Part shown: one piece after another, positions 4,627 to 24,710 of the stretch
Layout: each line of letters starts with the position of its first letter
Numbering within the stretch: position 1 is the first letter of the stretch
IMG/VR virus record: IMGVR_UViG_3300045993_000038
Span: 1-24,710 of that record
Direction: 5' to 3' (one strand)
Source of the DNA: a virus
DNA length: 24,710 bases
The notes under the pieces: generated by a model
The model's database searches: none
Told to the model about the DNA's origin: nothing
The model's input: only the letters and a program-made list of their open reading frames with translations
Program-made: the position numbers and the translations under genes

Positions 4627-5471
4627 TGGGTGCGCTTGAGGATGCCAAGGCTGCAGTAAATGCGGCTCGTGCGAACGCGGGAAGCGCCACCACGGATCCT
4701 GCTACGGGCAAGGAGAAGCCACCGCCCATCTGGTTGAGCAGTTACGAACCGAATGGTGGATACGAGGCCATCGGTTCAGCCAGTGCATGGGCTAACCGTC
4801 AGCCGAGCAAGAACGTGGTTGAGCAGAAGGATGTGCTCAAGTACGTCTACGGCATGACGGGTAACCCTGCTGCATGGCAGGAGTACACGCAGGCGCTGTA
4901 CGAGAAGGGCGCACTGTACGACATGCAGTACGCACGCAATGTGGGGTCGGTCATCGATGCCACGAACATGGCGATGCAGATGTACACGAACTCTGGTGCG
5001 AAGCAGTCGTTCATTGAGTGGGTGCGTGATCCCAGCGCTGGCATGATCGGCGTGGACAAGAAGAAGGCAGATCCGGGACTCAACGGTAGCCTCGGTGGGA
5101 CCTCAACCAACACGACAACTCGGGTTGACCTGTCCAATCCTGATACCGCCAAGGGTCTGGTCAACACTGCACTCACCCAGCACCTTGGACGGGCGGCGAA
5201 TCCTCAGGAGGTCAGCGACTTCTACGCCGCACTGCAGGCTCACGAGAAGATGAATCCCCAGACGGGATCCAGCACGACAGAGACCAGCAACCAGCAGATG
5301 TCGGGCAAGCAGGTTGCCTCAGCCACCACCACGAACGACGTGACAGGTGGGGGCACTAATGCGCAGCAGTTCGCTGATGACTGGGCCAAGGCACAAGAGG
5401 GTTCCGCTGAGTACACGGCAGCAACCACCTACATGGACGCATTCCTTCAGGCGATTAAGGCTCCGGTGTAA
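4626..5471 (+). CDS. Putative virion protein (281 aa), unknown function
   Basis: The ATG overlaps the stop of the giant upstream gene by one base (TGATG), implying translational coupling. The protein is mostly helical with Ala/Asn/Gln-rich sequence. A low-complexity Thr/Ser/Asn stretch lies around residues 155-170 and a second one around 215-245. Between them is a helical segment containing LGRAANPQEVSDFYAALQ, a short pattern of a kind I associate with internal or tail-associated virion proteins. There is no signal peptide, transmembrane segment or catalytic motif. Its place between the giant protein and the cell-wall hydrolase suggests a partner in the ejection machinery, but the exact role is unknown. 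Confidence 0.6.
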   Translation: MGALEDAKAAVNAARANAGSATTDPATGKEKPPPIWLSSYEPNGGYEAIGSASAWANRQPSKNVVEQKDVLKYVYGMTGNPAAWQEYTQALYEKGALYDMQYARNVGSVIDATNMAMQMYTNSGAKQSFIEWVRDPSAGMIGVDKKKADPGLNGSLGGTSTNTTTRVDLSNPDTAKGLVNTALTQHLGRAANPQEVSDFYAALQAHEKMNPQTGSSTTETSNQQMSGKQVASATTTNDVTGGGTNAQQFADDWAKAQEGSAEYTAATTYMDAFLQAIKAPV

Positions 5472-9674: not shown

Positions 9675-9745
9675 GTAGGTGAAGTGTTACGGAAGCACTC
9701 CGGTCTCCAAAACCGGCAGCCAAGGTTCGACTCCTTGCACCCGCG
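9675..9745 (+). tRNA. tRNA-Trp candidate (anticodon CCA)
   Basis: A cloverleaf can be drawn by eye. Acceptor arms GTAGGTG and CACCCGC pair with one A-C mismatch and one G-U. The D-arm is GTG/CAC around a loop with GG. The anticodon arm CCGGT/ACCGG closes the seven-base loop CTCCAAA with anticodon CCA (9707-9709). The T-arm CAAGG/CCTTG closes TTCGACT. CCA is not encoded at the 3' end. Position 8 is A instead of the near-universal T, and the acceptor mismatch weakens it slightly. It lies inside the late operon, 7 bases after a small ORF, so it may be processed from the late mRNA. Confidence 0.75.
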
Positions 9746-9748
9746 CTC

Positions 9749-19106: not shown

Positions 19107-21005
19107 ATGCGTAACGAGATCCATGAGATCCCTCATGCCCTGACGCTGAACACGACGGACACCCCGTACACGAATCCCAGTGGCATGAACGCCGACTACG
19201 ATCTCGGCGGCATCTACTTCCTTTCCGCTGCCTCGGATGAGATCCCCTACCAGCGTCAGTTGGCGAAGATCCGCAAGGACCAGTTCGACTCGTCGGCTAA
19301 CCCCGGAGACAACAGCCTGCAGGGCTGGTGGCTGCGTAGCCAGACCGACTGGTCGATGGGTGCGGGTCAGCCGTACATGGAGCCGATTGCCACAGAGAAT
19401 GTGGATCGATTCTACGCATCATCGGCGGGTGTCGACGTGTTCTCCGTACCGGGTGAGGCCACCCTGCTCCCAGCGATGGGCACCGCAGCGCAGACCATGA
19501 CGAACGCTAACCCCGGCTTCCTACTGAAGGTCCCGAACGGGTACATCTATGCCGCCGGTACTACCGTGACACGCTACGTGTCGGGTGTGTCGAACTCGGT
19601 GACAGCCGCAGGCACGGTCACGTCGATGATCATCGCAGGACCGAACCTTCTGGTCGCCTCCAATGGGAAGATCGAATGGGCACCCGTTGTCGGGACGTTC
19701 GCCCTGACCACGGGCTTCACGATGACAGCGATCATCCCCCGCATGTGGTGGGTGAAGGGTCGTACCCTGATCGCGTTGGGCAACAAGATCCACCAGAACT
19801 CAGGATCCACGATCACGGGCTCCACGGATCTGGTTGCGGCTACTCCCCTGTACACGCTGCAGGATTCCACCTCTGTGGTGGTGGGTGCAGCGACAACCCC
19901 GAAGTCCATCCTTCTGGCCATCAACACGACCAGCGGATCCAGCATCCAAGCCCTGACACTGGACACGGCGGGTGCCCTGCCGACAACGACGGCCCCCATC
20001 GTGGTGGCCGAGTTTCCCTCAGCCGAATCGCTGCTGGATCTTGCCTCATATCTGGGCACCTACGTGGGTATCGCCACCAGTTTCGGGGTGCGCATCGGAA
20101 CCATCGATGGCAATGGCAACCTGACCTACGGCCCTCTCCTCAACTCCCCCCTCCCGTCGAAGACACAGGACGTGTTCTCGGCGTTCGACCGCTTCCTTCA
20201 TTACGCCACGGCTAATGCGGGTGACAGCATCCCCGGCATCGTGCGGATCGATCTGTCGGAACTGCAGAAGGATGGCCGTGCACCGTGGGCCAACTGGCTG
20301 CGTACCTCCGCGAGTACCGCCGTGAACGGCTGCATCGTCACGGGCCTGCGCACGGCGCTGGTGTGGGCGCAGAACGGGTCGGCTCACAGCCTGTATGACG
20401 TGAAGGACGCGAACGGTCTGGCCGATGGATGGCTGGAGACCTCAGCCGTGCGGTTCGGCACGCTGGAGGCCAAGTCGTTCGACTCGGTGAGGCTGCTGAT
20501 GAACTCCCCGATGCAGGGATCCGTGTTCCTCTCGGTCATCAACAGTGAGGGCTCGGAGTCGGGCATCGGAACGATGACCAGTGCGATGGGTTACGAGGCA
20601 ACCTTCCGTACGGCCAACCGTAAGTCAATGACATCGATGAGCCTGAGGTTCGCGATGTCCCCTGAGTCTGGGACGCCGACACTGGGTCCGACGCTGCAGG
20701 CGTGGACGATGAAGGCCTACCCGTCCGTTGAGTCGCGGGGTGAGTCGGTGCTGCTGCCTCTACTGAACTTCGACTTCGAGAAGGATTCCCATGGTGTGCC
20801 GTGGGGCTACACGGGCAGGGCATGGGACAGGTGGCAGGCTCTACGTGATCGGTTGACCGATGGAACCAGTCTTGTCGTGAAGGAGTTCCAGTCGGGTGGT
20901 TCGTATGTGGCCATGCCTGAGGATGCATCGTTCACTCAGTCGGCTCCCCCGTCGTCGGCGTCGGGGTTCGGAGGGATCATCAGTGTGGTGTTGAAGACAA
21001 TCTAG
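19107..21005 (+). CDS. Large beta-rich tail protein (632 aa)
   Basis: The start is four bases after the previous stop, with GGAAAG upstream. The N-terminal 80 residues are polar with WWLRSQTDWSMGAGQPY around 72-88. After that the sequence is a long run of strands with repeated Gly/Thr/Ser turns (for example LPAMG, VVGAATTPKS, LDTAGALPTT), compatible with a propeller or large beta-solenoid. The C-terminal region has YTGRAWDRWQALRD and a Ser/Gly tail. It is the last gene of the late operon and is likely a tail-nozzle, hub or spike-like protein. No catalytic motif seen. Confidence 0.55.
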   Translation: MRNEIHEIPHALTLNTTDTPYTNPSGMNADYDLGGIYFLSAASDEIPYQRQLAKIRKDQFDSSANPGDNSLQGWWLRSQTDWSMGAGQPYMEPIATENVDRFYASSAGVDVFSVPGEATLLPAMGTAAQTMTNANPGFLLKVPNGYIYAAGTTVTRYVSGVSNSVTAAGTVTSMIIAGPNLLVASNGKIEWAPVVGTFALTTGFTMTAIIPRMWWVKGRTLIALGNKIHQNSGSTITGSTDLVAATPLYTLQDSTSVVVGAATTPKSILLAINTTSGSSIQALTLDTAGALPTTTAPIVVAEFPSAESLLDLASYLGTYVGIATSFGVRIGTIDGNGNLTYGPLLNSPLPSKTQDVFSAFDRFLHYATANAGDSIPGIVRIDLSELQKDGRAPWANWLRTSASTAVNGCIVTGLRTALVWAQNGSAHSLYDVKDANGLADGWLETSAVRFGTLEAKSFDSVRLLMNSPMQGSVFLSVINSEGSESGIGTMTSAMGYEATFRTANRKSMTSMSLRFAMSPESGTPTLGPTLQAWTMKAYPSVESRGESVLLPLLNFDFEKDSHGVPWGYTGRAWDRWQALRDRLTDGTSLVVKEFQSGGSYVAMPEDASFTQSAPPSSASGFGGIISVVLKTI

Positions 21006-21063
21006 GAGGTGGTCCTACTTCGTGGTTGGCGGGAAGCGTGCGCACGAAGTGCTGAACAGGTTC

Positions 21064-21095
21064 GGTGGGGTTCCTTCGGGAACCCCACCTTTCCT
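21064..21095 (+). terminator. Intrinsic terminator with UUCG loop
   Basis: GGTGGGGTTCC (21064-21074) and GGAACCCCACC (21079-21089) make a perfect 11-bp stem closed by a TTCG tetraloop, followed by TTTCCT. It lies 59 bases after the last late gene, ahead of the leftward integrase operon, so it should end late transcription. The T-run is short, but the stem is very stable. Confidence 0.8.
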
Positions 21096-21116
21096 GCGTT
21101 ATCGGACTAATCGGAT

Positions 21117-21157
21117 GTCTAACCTTTACTATGATATTCGTATATCAAAGGTTAGAC
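21117..21157 (-). terminator. Second hairpin at the end of the integrase operon
   Basis: GTCTAACCTTT (21117-21127) and AAAGGTTAGAC (21147-21157) are a perfect 11-bp inverted repeat. A five-base bulge precedes an inner GATAT/ATATC stem with a TCGT loop. The stem overlaps the stop codon (21145-21147) of the leftward zinc-binding gene. No T-run follows on the minus strand, so it could be a processing or 3'-protecting structure. Together with the terminator at 21064 it separates the convergent operons. Confidence 0.55.
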
Positions 21158-21369
21158 TTGTCGATCTCGGTGACCTTGAACCTGTGCTGCGGCTTGACCG
21201 TGGAACGCTCGGCCCTCCGGGCACTCTTGATCAGGGCGCTGAAGCCCTTCCCGTAGCAGCCCTGACAGATGTCCACCTCCCACGCCTTCCGGCTGAACAC
21301 GACGGTCATCACACTGACATCGGTGGTGCCCTTGCACAGATCGCAGAAGGTCACGGTTGAGGTGCCCAT
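21145..21369 (-). CDS. Small zinc-binding protein downstream of integrase (74 aa)
   Basis: I chose ATG at 21369, which overlaps the integrase stop (TGATG); a GTG three bases upstream is possible. Cys9/Cys12 (FCDLC) and Cys35/Cys38 (ICQGC) form a four-Cys zinc-binding pair around strands. A basic C-terminal part follows (SARRAERSTVKPQHRF). It is coupled to the integrase, so it might be a DNA-binding helper such as an excision factor or a regulator. No family recognised; the function is inferred from context only. Confidence 0.6.
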   Translation of the reverse strand: MGTSTVTFCDLCKGTTDVSVMTVVFSRKAWEVDICQGCYGKGFSALIKSARRAERSTVKPQHRFKVTEIDKSNL

Positions 21370-22376
21370 CACACTGCCTCCAGTCGTGTCACGCCCTTGG
21401 ACTTGACGAGATCCGGGAGCATGGACTTGCCTGCCAGCATCTCGTTCCTCTGCATCCGTTCGATCCCCACCTGAAGATAGACCTCTGTCACCTTGGTGTC
21501 CGAGTGACCGAGCATGCTACCGACGGTACGAAGGGCACCATCGTAACCAATCGACCGTAACTGGTCAAAGAGGGCACGAGCACCTGACCGTCTGAGGGTA
21601 TGACCACCTGTCTGCTTTGTCTCATATCCGAGTTTTGTCAGCGCACGCTGGGTCATCTCGTAGGGATGCCCGATCTTGGAGGTGGGACGGTAGGCCTGAG
21701 TGCCCCCAGACGGGGCTAGACGGCGTGTCTGAGGGTCGTACACCATCTCCTGTTGGGCTAGACTAGGGACCAGAAAGTAACCGCTCTGAAGGCCTCCTAC
21801 GGCCTTCCCGTAGTCTGCCATGTAGCGTAGCAGTTCCTCCTTCAACTCACTGCACATGGGCAGCATGTCAGGCTGGCTCGTCTTCCACCGGAAGATGCGG
21901 ATCAGGTTGCGGTCGAAGTCCACATCGTCCACCCGGAGGGTGACCAGTTCACTGGACCGGCAGAAGGTGTACAGGCCGAGGGCGAGGACCGCACGATCCC
22001 GTGGGTTGTTGGCCGCATCCAGAAGATCAGCGAACTCCTCCGGGGGGATGATCAACTTCTCCTTCACCGGGACCTTGTTGTTGTCCCAGTCGTCCAGCGG
22101 GTCGTAGTCCTTGGGCATGTAGCCCATGCGACGGCAGTACTGGACGAACTGCTTCAGGTTCCCGAGGTACAGGTTGCGGGTCGCGGGCTCCCACTTGTGC
22201 TGGGTGAACAACTTGTCGAAGTGCTGGGGTCGAAGGGAGGCGACCTGAATGTCACCCACCAGACGCCACAGATGCTTGATCGGCTGCATGTTGTTGTCTA
22301 CCGTATTCGCCGCCTTGCCCTTGGCGATCCGATGGGCGCGGTACTGGTCCATCGCGTCCTTGATGTCGATGTTCAT
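21369..22376 (-). CDS. int: Tyrosine integrase
   Basis: I chose the ATG at 22376, preceded by GGAGG, over an upstream ATG (22421) lacking a ribosome site. The product has 335 residues. The N-terminal ~90 residues are a SAM-like, core-binding domain. The catalytic domain carries Arg140 (FCRSSEL), Lys165 (RWKTS), His259 and Arg262 (HTLRRSG), His291 (LGHSDTK) and the nucleophile Tyr300 (VTEVYL). This is the full R-K-H-R-H-Y set of a tyrosine recombinase. It inserts and excises the phage genome through a DNA-3'-phosphotyrosine intermediate at attP/attB. It is separated from the HTH gene by a 258-bp control region with tRNA-like sequence. Presence of an intact integrase implies a temperate life style. 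Confidence 0.93.
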   Translation of the reverse strand: MNIDIKDAMDQYRAHRIAKGKAANTVDNNMQPIKHLWRLVGDIQVASLRPQHFDKLFTQHKWEPATRNLYLGNLKQFVQYCRRMGYMPKDYDPLDDWDNNKVPVKEKLIIPPEEFADLLDAANNPRDRAVLALGLYTFCRSSELVTLRVDDVDFDRNLIRIFRWKTSQPDMLPMCSELKEELLRYMADYGKAVGGLQSGYFLVPSLAQQEMVYDPQTRRLAPSGGTQAYRPTSKIGHPYEMTQRALTKLGYETKQTGGHTLRRSGARALFDQLRSIGYDGALRTVGSMLGHSDTKVTEVYLQVGIERMQRNEMLAGKSMLPDLVKSKGVTRLEAV

Positions 22377-22416
22377 GGCTGCCTCCGGGCGTCTATTGCT
22401 TGAATGTAACCGTGTC

Positions 22417-22425
22417 AGCATAGCA
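22417..22425 (-). promoter_or_regulatory. Extended -10 element of the integrase promoter
   Basis: On the minus strand TGC-TATGCT reads as an extended -10 (TGN followed by TATGCT). Transcription would start near base 22409, leaving about 33 bases before the integrase ATG. No -35 is visible, as expected for extended -10 promoters. Confidence 0.45.
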
Positions 22426-22439
22426 CGGGTAACTTGCCA

Positions 22440-22485
22440 CTGGTGTCCGACCAGCGATTAGGGGTTCAAATCCCCCCTCGGACAC
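22440..22485. other. tRNA-like sequence, candidate attP core
   Basis: GTGTCCGA (22443-22450) and TCGGACAC (22478-22485) are perfect complements. Between them is a T-arm-like element, AGGGG-TTCAAAT-CCCCC. The T-arm followed by an acceptor-like strand is the classic form of a phage attP that matches the 3' end of a host tRNA. It lies upstream of the leftward integrase, as is common. No CCA is encoded. D- and anticodon-arm counterparts are absent or degenerate, so this is not called as a tRNA. Confidence 0.5.
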
Positions 22486-22491
22486 GACAAG

Positions 22492-22517
22492 TTCCCCTCT
22501 CGCTGTGAGCAGGGGAA
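22492..22517. repeat. Inverted repeat next to candidate attP
   Basis: TTCCCCTCTC (22492-22501) pairs with GAGCAGGGGAA (22507-22517) with one bulged C around GCTGT. CAGGGGA recurs at 22551-22557. Such short repeats beside a core could be integrase arm sites or a stem-loop in a transcript. A second small stem, GTCAC-TAGAA-GTGAC, lies at 22534-22548. Confidence 0.4.
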
Positions 22518-22570
22518 ATCTCGAGCCTCCGTCGTCACTAGAAGTGACTTCAGGGGATACTGATTGTAGC

Positions 22571-22602
22571 CATATGACTGTTGACTTATCACTTGACATA
22601 TG
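22571..22602. promoter_or_regulatory. Operator-like inverted repeat upstream of HTH gene
   Basis: CATATGAC (22571-22578) and GACATATG (22595-22602) form a near-perfect inverted repeat over 32 bases. Two TTGAC boxes lie within it (22581 and 22593). The position overlaps the promoter of the HTH gene and faces the integrase promoter, so a repressor site is plausible but unproven. Confidence 0.35.
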
Positions 22603-22621
22603 CGTAACCTGTTCGTAATAG
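22593..22621 (+). promoter_or_regulatory. Candidate promoter of the HTH gene
   Basis: TTGACA (22593-22598), a 17-base spacer and TAATAG (22616-22621) give a good -35 and a modest -10. The start would be near 22628, leaving a very short leader that trims the AAGGAGA ribosome site. An alternative, TTGACT at 22581 with TAACCT at 22605, would leave the site intact. Confidence 0.4.
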
Positions 22622-22634
22622 GGAAGAAGGAGAC

Positions 22635-23093
22635 ATGCCTGCTAATAGGATCCTGCCAGACAAGATCACGCTACAGCACTGGATCGAAGACGAGGGGATG
22701 ACCCATCAGCAGATTGCTGATCGTATCTTCGAGACCACGGGCGAGAGAGTGGGTCGGTCAGCGGTATCCGTTGCAGCGCATAGGTACGGCATCACCAAGC
22801 CGGGGAACAGGTACAAGGACTACCTGCCATGGCGTGTGAGTACCTACCACATCCGGGCCTACCCGTTTAGGATGCTGCGTCTTATGGGACGCAGGGATAC
22901 CAAGGGACCCGAATCCTTAAACGAGCAGGAGACAGCGATGCTGGATGGATGGCTGGAGATGCTGGATCGGGAGAAGGCCGTGGTGGGATACGATCCCGAG
23001 GACGATCAGGGTGTCCACTACATCTCGGCCAAGTACAAGGACCATGATGGACTGGCCCCTATCAGGATCAAGAAGTTGCACCTGAAAACATGA
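22635..23093 (+). CDS. Helix-turn-helix DNA-binding protein (152 aa)
   Basis: ATG follows AAGGAGA. Residues about 12-50 form a homeodomain-like HTH with MTHQQIADRIFETTG as its first part and GRSAVSVAAHRYGI as the recognition helix. Downstream is an aromatic/basic block, YLPWRVSTYHIRAYPFRMLR, and then an acidic end with VGYDPEDDQGVHYI. This combination recurs in small actinophage DNA-binding proteins and I recognise it by pattern, not by a search. Divergent to the integrase, it is in the usual position of an immunity repressor or lysogeny regulator, but the actual target is unknown. The 3' end converges on the leftward zinc-finger gene. Confidence 0.7.
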   Translation: MPANRILPDKITLQHWIEDEGMTHQQIADRIFETTGERVGRSAVSVAAHRYGITKPGNRYKDYLPWRVSTYHIRAYPFRMLRLMGRRDTKGPESLNEQETAMLDGWLEMLDREKAVVGYDPEDDQGVHYISAKYKDHDGLAPIRIKKLHLKT

Positions 23094-23107
23094 TGATTAT
23101 CTGACAC

Positions 23108-23128
23108 ATGATGTTTTCAAAACATCAT
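23108..23128. promoter_or_regulatory. 21-bp palindrome after the HTH gene
   Basis: The arms 23108-23117 and 23119-23128 are perfect complements around a single central C, with AAAACAT as the repeated core. The same core occurs once more at 23085-23091, overlapping the end of the HTH gene. The palindrome is too tight for a normal RNA hairpin loop, so an operator for a dimeric protein is more likely. GGACAAG/CTTGTCC (23131-23137 / 23163-23169) flanks the convergent stop and may act as a weak terminator. Confidence 0.4.
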
Positions 23129-23150
23129 TCGGACAAGTTGATATGTTCAA

Positions 23151-23339
23151 TTAGTTTCTGATCTTGTCCAGTTCTGCCCGTCGTGAGATCCCATCCTGCC
23201 GCATGCGCTGAAGACGCAGCGCACAGGTGGCATGGATCCACGGGTAGGAACGACGGATCTTCACGATGGGATCACCAAGATCAATCTCTGAATCGCATGA
23301 AGGACAATGTCCAAACTTGTTGGCATTGATAACGATCAT
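23151..23339 (-). CDS. Small zinc-finger protein (62 aa)
   Basis: The product carries Cys12/Cys15 (CPSC) and His36/Cys39 (WIHATC), a C2HC zinc site similar in spacing to PARP-type fingers, with a Lys/Arg-rich C-terminal helix. The ATG at 23339 has GGGAG (23354-23350) upstream, but this site lies in the arm of a stable hairpin in the leader. The gene is convergent with the HTH gene. Function unknown; a nucleic-acid-binding role is inferred. Confidence 0.6.
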   Translation of the reverse strand: MIVINANKFGHCPSCDSEIDLGDPIVKIRRSYPWIHATCALRLQRMRQDGISRRAELDKIRN

Positions 23340-23346
23340 CTATCTC

Positions 23347-23587
23347 ACACTCCCTTGCGGGAGTGTTCGAGGACTGGATCCCCCTCTAGTCTCCCCAAAG
23401 GGAGACCCCTCCCATTGGCTGGGAGTTGAGGGGGAACCTGCCCTCAGACATCCCGCTTCTGCGGTCTGGTCCTGAGTCTTGGATTGCCCCACGGCTTTCA
23501 CCGCATCCCGAAGGTAACATGCCAGCGGCATGCCCGGTGTCTCACACGCCCGTGTCGTTCGGTCCGTCAGCATGGGACCTTCGTCCC
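23347..23587 (-). ncRNA. Dense structured RNA region, leader of the 62-aa gene or independent ncRNA
   Basis: No convincing coding gene occupies 23340-23643. Read on the minus strand, the following fold is visible. A 5-bp stem with GAAG loop lies at 23574-23587 and a 6-bp stem with a 3-base loop at 23518-23532. CGGT-GAAA-GCCG lies at 23492-23503. A CAGAC/GTCTG stem with an inner AGAA loop lies at 23445-23468. An 8-bp stem (23379-23386 with 23428-23435) closes a three-way junction of two hairpins (23389-23406 and 23409-23425) with two-base linkers. Last comes an 8-bp GCAA-loop hairpin (23347-23366) ending eight bases before the gene start. The loops are purine-rich, GNRA-like on the minus strand only, which favours this strand. 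The family is not recognised. Confidence 0.4.
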
Positions 23588-23607
23588 GGAGGACTGTCAC
23601 CCCTCCC

Positions 23608-23616
23608 TGCTATGGT
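23608..23616 (+). promoter_or_regulatory. Extended -10 promoter before the 93-aa gene
   Basis: TGC-TATGGT is an extended -10 with a predicted start near 23623, leaving about 20 bases including GGGGGT before ATG 23644. It closely resembles the integrase -10 and the one at 23927. Confidence 0.4.
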
Positions 23617-23643
23617 TAAGCCAACATAAACAGGGGGTAAAGC

Positions 23644-23925
23644 ATGGGACTGATCACCGTGGACAACCGAACGATCTCGGATGTCCTCGCTGGCTACGAT
23701 GTCACCGCGTCACAAACGCACATGATGACCGCTACCTGTCACGCTGACAGGAAGGGTAACCGGCTCGTCATCGGCAGCATCCACGACATCGATGACTCTG
23801 ACTGGCAGGCTGTCATGGACAGGTTCCCTGTCTCGCCAGACTACGAGTACGATTACGCCTTCCATGACGGAATCCATTGGCACACGATCTTCGATGACCC
23901 AGCGAGTAGGCCACCCGTACGCTGA
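23644..23925 (+). CDS. Hypothetical protein (93 aa)
   Basis: ATG is preceded by GGGGGT. The product is mixed alpha/beta with a His/Asp-rich centre (THMMTATCHAD, GSIHDIDDSDW) and ends in HDGIHWHTIFDDP. Clustered His residues could bind metal, but no family is recognised. It appears to be driven by its own promoter and opens the rightward gene set that includes the nuclease. Confidence 0.5.
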   Translation: MGLITVDNRTISDVLAGYDVTASQTHMMTATCHADRKGNRLVIGSIHDIDDSDWQAVMDRFPVSPDYEYDYAFHDGIHWHTIFDDPASRPPVR

Positions 23926-23926
23926 C

Positions 23927-23935
23927 TGGTATGTT
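23927..23935 (+). promoter_or_regulatory. Extended -10 promoter before the nuclease gene
   Basis: TGG-TATGTT is an extended -10 with a predicted start near 23942, only a few bases from ATG 23947. It would give an almost leaderless mRNA, consistent with the missing Shine-Dalgarno. Confidence 0.35.
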
Positions 23936-23946
23936 ACCTTGGATGC

Positions 23947-24165
23947 ATGACAACGCTAGAAGATGAACACCTGTATCTGCTGCCCGACTACATCTCCTTC
24001 TCCTCGTTCTCCACATGGGCCAAGTGCCAAGAGGAGTACCGCCTCACCCGCATCCTGAGGGTGGAGGAGGGACCAGCCATCTGGTTCGCGGGAGGATCCG
24101 CATTCCACTCAGGATGCGATGCCATCGACTACGCCCTTCTCGCTGATCAGGAGGTGCCGTTCTAG
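23947..24165 (+). CDS. RecB/Cas4-like nuclease, N-terminal part (split gene)
   Basis: The 72-residue product has ISFSSFSTWAKCQEEYRL (residues 16-33), the typical N-terminal segment of Cas4/RecB-type PD-(D/E)XK exonucleases. It also has FAGGSAFHSGCD with His54, the position of motif I. The frame ends at TAG (24163-24165). The remaining catalytic motifs are in the next frame, whose GTG overlaps this stop. AGGAGG near the end of this ORF could serve that GTG. Either two translationally coupled polypeptides form the nuclease, or a frameshift (real or sequencing) joins them. Confidence 0.65.
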   Translation: MTTLEDEHLYLLPDYISFSSFSTWAKCQEEYRLTRILRVEEGPAIWFAGGSAFHSGCDAIDYALLADQEVPF

Positions 24166-24710
24166 TGGCTCCCTACGTTCACCCGCTCAAGGCAGGCGAG
24201 ACTGAGTTCACCCGCTACATGGACTCCGCTCTAGCCGAGCACCCGGATAAGGTCTGGCGTACAGCAGGCAAGCCGACGAAGGCCCTGCCCAACGGCGAGG
24301 ACGAGCAGTTCATGCGGGACAGCGGTCCCGGCTGGCTGGCTGCCTACTACAAGTGGCGCATGGTCAACAGCCACTACGTCCCATGGGAGTTCGCCCCCGG
24401 CAAGCATGCCATTGAGATGGGCATCACCGTGGAGGTGGACGGATCCACCCTCAAGGGCTACATCGACCGGGTGTTCCGCAACATCAGGGACGAGAGCCTG
24501 CTCATCGTGGACCTCAAGTCAGGCAAGTCGAAGCAGACCAGCCCCCTGCAGTTGGGCTTCTACCGCCTCGGCATCTACCAGCAGTTCGGGGTGGACATCA
24601 AGTGGGGCTCGTTCTATGACGCACGCAATGCCACACTGGATGCCAAGTATGACCTTGACCAGTTCCCCCCGGACCTTGTCCGTCGCTGGATCCGCAACAT
24701 GCAGCGTTCC
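24165..24710 (+). CDS. RecB/Cas4-like nuclease, catalytic part, 3' partial
   Basis: GTG at 24165 overlaps the TAG of the preceding ORF, with AGGAGG about ten bases upstream. The 182 visible codons run to the right edge. Motifs in order are GYIDRVF (Asp101), LLIVDLKSGK (Asp116, Lys118) and QLGFYRLGIYQ (Gln129, Tyr133). This is the D...D-x-K...Q-x-x-x-Y set of RecB-family exonucleases. The N-terminal SSFSTW and His motif I are in the upstream ORF, so the nuclease is split. The likely role is DNA end processing in phage recombination or replication, as for phage Cas4-like proteins without CRISPR; no CRISPR array is seen. Confidence 0.8.
   Translation, partial: MAPYVHPLKAGETEFTRYMDSALAEHPDKVWRTAGKPTKALPNGEDEQFMRDSGPGWLAAYYKWRMVNSHYVPWEFAPGKHAIEMGITVEVDGSTLKGYIDRVFRNIRDESLLIVDLKSGKSKQTSPLQLGFYRLGIYQQFGVDIKWGSFYDARNATLDAKYDLDQFPPDLVRRWIRNMQRS

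Follow-up and report, generated by a model that had tools for sequence, protein, structure and literature searches.

The window analysed here is a whole IMG/VR record (IMGVR_UViG_3300045993_000038), a linear fragment of 24,710 nucleotides of actinobacteriophage DNA whose gene content includes virion genes, with a tRNA-Trp (CCA) at 9675–9746 inside the virion gene block, and a tyrosine integrase (Table 1). Two strong inverted repeats at 21057–21157 (z between about −6 and −7 on each strand), between the convergent tail and integrase operons, are probably terminators, though missed by a scan for U-runs. GGGGTTCAAATCCCCCCTCGGACAC (22461–22485), some 40 nt ahead of the start of the integrase gene, resembles the 3′ end of a tRNA gene, recurs with about 96% identity in L019, L023, L024 and L026, and is a candidate attP. 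The immunity repressor has distant similarity to repressors of Mycobacterium and Gordonia phages, and the small zinc-finger protein has homologues in Tsukamurella phages TIN2–TIN4 (E 3e-4), in L002 and in phrog_1581 (E 1e-5). Relatives were collected with a tail-protein profile, yielding 80 loci, and a repressor profile, yielding 46 loci (L numbers denote loci throughout); close relatives match the window in the order of their integrase, repressor and nuclease genes, and no DNA relative of the folded region described below was found among 50,697 phage records. The RecB-like nuclease of the window is split between overlapping ORFs in different frames (23947–24165 and 24165–24710), an arrangement also present in close relatives (for example, L026 6819–7013 and 7010–7708), with a single 244-aa ORF in L035; a conserved split and a programmed frameshift are both candidate explanations.

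Table 1. Genes and predicted elements of the integrase–repressor–early gene region, in window coordinates
Feature	Position	Strand	Remarks
Tyrosine integrase	21369–22421	−	
Immunity repressor	22635–23093	+	phrog_3929; convergent with the zinc-finger gene
Small zinc-finger gene	23151–23339	−	62-aa product with CPSC...HATC; ATG placed at +165 of the predicted RNA
H1, predicted hairpin ACACUCCC-GCAA-GGGAGUGU with the GGGAG ribosome site	23347–23366	−	pairing probability 0.89–1.0
P7, predicted closing stem that encloses the three-way junction, GAGGGCAGG/CCAGUCCUC	23369–23445	−	pairing probabilities 0.88–0.97
Predicted three-way junction	23379–23435	−	8-bp stem 23379–23386/23428–23435; hairpins 23409–23425 and 23388–23407
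P3, predicted hairpin CCGC-AGAA-GCGG	23453–23464	−	3′ arm also used by the alternative long closing stem
P2, predicted UGGG...CUCA (relatives UGGGG...CYUCA)	23473–23491	−	consensus fold and R3 alignment of the window
P1, predicted 5′-terminal hairpin GCGGU-GAAA-GCCGU	23491–23504	−	runs into the GUGGGGC box
TACCTT, −10-like box (TAnnnT)	23511–23516	−	exactly 6 nt upstream of the predicted RNA 5′ end
CCGTGTCG, candidate repressor operator	23550–23557	+	imperfect copy of CGGCGTGTCG; between two divergent promoters
First early gene of the divergent rightward operon, then nuclease	23644–23925	+	from position and relatives

The gap between the zinc-finger gene and the early operon had been read in the initial annotation as 300 bases of dense structure, and its excess of stability over shuffled sequence is real (23340–23640, z −4.6 on the minus strand and −3.95 on the plus strand), but sliding windows of 120 nt confine it to about 23301–23460, the strongest being 23341–23460 (z −6.7 minus, −4.8 plus), with 23460–23640 no more stable than shuffles. 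The z-score by itself is not special, since the terminators at 21061–21180 fold equally strongly (z −6.9). The 8-bp stem described as enclosing two hairpins was recovered with linkers of 1–2 nt and pairing probabilities of about 0.95–1.0 in context, and the judgement that such a three-way junction is unlikely by chance is borne out by its descriptor, which 4 of 3000 dinucleotide-shuffled copies of the region satisfy and which also fits one other place within the window. The minus-strand fold contains 43 pairs, including three G–U, against 36 pairs and no G–U on the plus strand, a mild argument for an RNA on the minus strand that lends moderate support to the original strand call. GGGAG does lie inside the last hairpin (H1, GCAA loop), where the probability that the ribosome site is unpaired is about 0. 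Two of the loops first quoted, GAAA (P1) and AGAA (P3), belong to the element described below, whereas the GAAG hairpin near 23574–23590 sits upstream of the predicted RNA start and probably lies outside that element. A coding explanation was rejected for the overlapping 86-aa minus-strand ORF, whose codon usage scores −0.44 per codon on a scale where phage genes mostly reach +0.2 to +0.6 and the off-frame background has a median of −0.65 (95%, −0.25), in agreement with the earlier view that the gap holds no convincing gene.

Hairpins of this stability could act solely as DNA or terminator-type features that shield the early operon from transcription of the repressor. Among the 33 relatives with sequence, about 20 contain a 120-nt gap window with z at or below about −4, mostly terminators or hairpin arrays, and the strong folding of the plus strand in the window would also suit such a role. 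Against this, no U-run follows the hairpins on either strand, the G–U pairs are confined to the minus fold, and the region appears homologous to the 5′ hairpin, −10 box and closing-stem order of a covarying element; insulation as the sole function is rated very unlikely. A terminator was itself rejected as an explanation, no GC-rich hairpin with a U-run having been found in 21000–24710.

The covarying element emerged from a scan of all loci for paired G- or C-runs, in which GGGGGGTAGGGGGG or close variants occurred once per locus, near the repressor and early genes: on the plus strand ahead of the early genes in L031, L032, L033, L035, L041, L049, L051, L064, L065, L069, L073 and L077, and on the minus strand between the repressor and the early operon in L097, L110, L112, L131 and L134. 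With L112 left out of the count, as its G-run is present but its 5′ part unconvincing, the tally is about 15 related phage contigs, each with a single structured element between the repressor and early genes. Alignment revealed a larger conserved order beginning at GCGGGAAACCGUGGGGC, 6–7 nt after TAnnnT, in which a 5′-terminal GNRA-type hairpin that ends in CGUGGGG is followed by a small hairpin, an arm rich in C, a further hairpin and a closing stem; a G6-7-UA-G6-7 run is usual between the C-rich arm/hairpin part and the closing stem, and its second G-run pairs with the C-rich arm in the consensus fold. TAnnnT lies 6–7 nt upstream of the 5′ hairpin in 11 relatives and is absent in L110, the pairs of P1 vary in L134 and L097, and the pattern G[CG]G..GNNA..C[CG]GTGGGG occurs in 1.48 Mb only in the elements and at two unrelated places.

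The arms of the closing stem diverge strongly in sequence between lineages with pairing kept within each, and own arms beat permuted arms with P 5e-5 when the window is excluded and < 1e-5 when it is included. The 3′ arm of P3 lies within the 5′ arm of P7 for 0.93 of bases, whereas 300 shuffled controls reached at most 0.80 and 300 controls with swapped arms at most 0.89, so that P3 and the closing stem are mutually exclusive. A covariance model built from 11 members with the window left out (R2) also detects L110 (E 4e-6) and L131 (E 0.0016), neither of which was in its training set. Because motif and boundaries were chosen after the fact, single tests look stronger than they are; the held-out matches to L110 and L131 and the arm permutation are least exposed to this, and they rest on few independent lineages, about nine. 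Covariation in homologues, to which the initial annotation had looked, is found in the closing-stem arms across divergent phages; the window copy itself obtains no significant score from models trained without it.

No match was obtained for the elements of nine relatives in Rfam 15, for the element in INPHARED by blastn, or for R2 in mycobacteriophage D29, phiHau3, Immanuel3 and Daudau and in 396 actinobacterial genomes, the last being a search without a positive control. As judged by sequence comparison, the element is a structured RNA absent from Rfam and present in uncultivated actinobacterial phages, beside genes for lysis/lysogeny control. Seven matches to its motif in bacterial genomes were judged to be chance occurrences in coding sequence, with the exception of L149, an Abditibacteriaceae MAG, where TATCAT followed by GCGTGGGGCGGGAACCTCAACGACGG (about 4891–4978) is apparently intergenic and has no G-run; this site resembles the 5′ part of the element and is a candidate for either chance or distant relationship.

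The window copy is probably a divergent member of this element. Its TACCTT-6-GCGG is an exact match to the −10/5′-hairpin arrangement of the relatives, with TAnnnT, a 6-nt spacer and a 5′-terminal hairpin with a GNRA-type loop ending in CGUGGGG (GCGGUGAAAGCCGUGGGGC begins at 23504; TACCTT-6-GCGGUGAAAGCCGUGGGGC spans 23516–23486 of the minus strand), and it is placed as in L097, L110, L131 and L134, in the repressor/early-operon gap and on the same strand. The closing stem of the window ranks its own 3′ arm first of 16 (−29.6 kcal/mol), and minus-strand 23365–23520 is the best match to the L097 element in the whole window on both strands, equalled in 1 of 1000 shuffles. With a further covariance model trained without the window (R3), the element comes second among the window's matches, aligned over its full length from precisely 23504 but scoring no more than 5.2 bits (E 2.4), and an unfiltered R2 search of the window did not report it. 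A model built from the window alone (R1) gave weak matches only (E 0.3 or worse), three of them at syntenic sites on the same strand, of which L134 was later confirmed by other means and L130 and L112 were not. The exact CTCCC/GGGAG junction pattern was found in no viral contig, and the window region had no Rfam 15 match at the gathering threshold, the best being a microRNA model on the plus strand with 25.5 bits against 95. In place of the relatives' C-arm/hairpin/G6-UA-G6 domain stands the three-way junction, with one hairpin more than in the relatives; G6-7-UA-G6-7 is missing from the window, which has no run of six G or C and only GGGAGGGG...UAGAGGGGG. With no perfect G-runs and no significant model score, membership is probable and not proven.

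What such an RNA might do in the window is suggested by its position and modelled folds. The reading we consider most likely, at about even chances, is a 5′ leader of a leftward transcript from about 23504 into the zinc-finger gene, controlling its own transcript by refolding. The 165-nt leader from 23504 has an MFE of −89.3 (z −5.9), with none of 500 shuffles as stable, and the −10 box, RNA start and distance to the ATG are as in relatives, which favours the original proposal of a leader or non-coding RNA ahead of this gene. In most leader-type relatives a gene starts 136–186 nt after the RNA start; the first gene encodes a small Cys-rich protein in L031, L064, L073 and L077 and a nuclease in L035 and L032. 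Against this reading, the zinc-finger gene adjoins the element in the window alone among some 35 repressor loci examined. The zinc-finger family was also considered as a carrier of the leader and rejected, being present at three loci only, with the homologues examined lying inside operons.

A transcript starting at about 23504 would run leftward and reach the zinc-finger ATG at +165. In the finished leader P3, the closing stem and H1 would form together, H1 hiding the ribosome site and thereby keeping the zinc-finger gene off by default. During synthesis, or if the RNA were held, the 3′ strand of P3 (GCGGGA) could instead pair with UCCCGC, the 5′ strand of H1, so that the closing stem would grow longer, H1 would open and the ribosome site would become accessible; refolding would be possible because one strand is common to mutually exclusive helices. 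Folds of the growing chain have the long closing stem at 150 nt, when the 3′ half of H1 is not yet made, and H1 at 160 nt. With final states of −101.8 versus −94.2 kcal/mol the open state would be rare without help, and these energies suggest a translational switch that is off by default. Translational riboswitch and RNA thermometer leaders likewise have helices that exclude one another and conceal the ribosome site in a hairpin; unlike translational riboswitches, the element matches no known aptamer in Rfam, and it precedes different genes or, where it faces the repressor, none. In L097, L110, L131 and L134 the gap is taken up by the element, which faces the 3′ end of the repressor with no gene after it, so that control of downstream translation cannot be the function shared by all members.

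A 10-bp motif, CGGCGTGTCG, recurs between the repressor and early genes of relatives and is probably the repressor operator; of 33 gaps, 15 contain its 9-mer CGGCGTGTC, where 0.05 would be expected. The candidate operator lies at about −52 from the predicted RNA start in the window, −57 in L097 and −59 in L110. Matches to the full 10-mer with one mismatch show no enrichment in the window and do not include the copy CCGTGTCG.

From a repressor-controlled divergent promoter, the element might be expressed as a stand-alone RNA acting in trans or as antisense, with the zinc-finger gene downstream by chance. Facing the 3′ end of the repressor gene, it could lower repressor expression, by analogy with lambda OOP, which lowers expression of cII. 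The elements of L097, L110, L131 and L134, which point at the repressor and precede no gene, and the possession of an own −10 box both speak for this possibility, as do the abundant non-coding RNAs reported for cluster A mycobacteriophages and for Rhodococcus phage WC1 (PMC10986025). Those strongly expressed RNAs of unknown function resemble the element as non-coding transcripts of actinophages but are located at the ends of genomes or in a gap at the centre (PMC10986025); no structure in common was found. In the window, as in L031-, L033-, L035- and L077-type phages, the distance from RNA start to gene is that of a leader, however. A purely stand-alone RNA is the main rival and is judged doubtful, some way short of an even chance.

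Action at the level of transcription has also been considered, either as an antiterminator similar to HK022 put or as a termination, R-loop or replication-primer element similar to mitochondrial CSB II, the termination or primer version acting through G6-UA-G6 at about +85 in the relatives. The element always lies at a predicted transcript 5′ end beside early genes, in either orientation, and put RNAs, which are likewise structured nascent RNAs downstream of early phage promoters, act alone (PMC9378689); put differs in its length of about 70 nt, its two stem-loops and its lambdoid phages (PMC9378689), compared with about 135–165 nt, several helices and an unrelated host group for the element. 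In mitochondria, a G-quadruplex that forms in nascent RNA past LSP brings about termination and may give rise to primers (PMC4357710), and relatives of the window similarly have a G-rich run transcribed soon after the start; yet perfect G-runs are missing from the window copy, and the second run is paired with the C-rich arm in the relatives. An effect on polymerase is rated improbable as the explanation for the window, though less so than mere insulation.

With no gene after the element in L097-type phages, the common function may be that of a stand-alone RNA, an effect on polymerase or priming. A wider and still tentative proposal, which we rate as rather unlikely, is a new class of phage RNA at transcript 5′ ends, independent of orientation and acting on polymerase or replication priming in place of one downstream gene; members would share two mutually exclusive helices and, for the most part, the G6-UA-G6 run. 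The covarying element, whose predicted start is fixed and which lies beside the repressor and early genes, offers a defined RNA for testing a role in the lysis/lysogeny decision, and it can be modelled and sought in other phages.

Other features of the repressor/early-gene region were observed in relatives. Arrays of several stable hairpins, some without U-runs, lie between the repressor and the early operon in L110 (4421–4680), L117 (4421–4720) and L130 (4415–4674). In L098–L104 a poly-G tract of 6–14 G is situated just past the start region of the first early gene, about 230–290 nt after the repressor stop (L101, 4453+242; L100, 2998+242), with lengths differing between close pairs (G8 in L100 versus G14 in L101, 96% identical; G6 in L103 versus G12 in L104, 91%), a candidate for either a phase-variable tract or an assembly effect.
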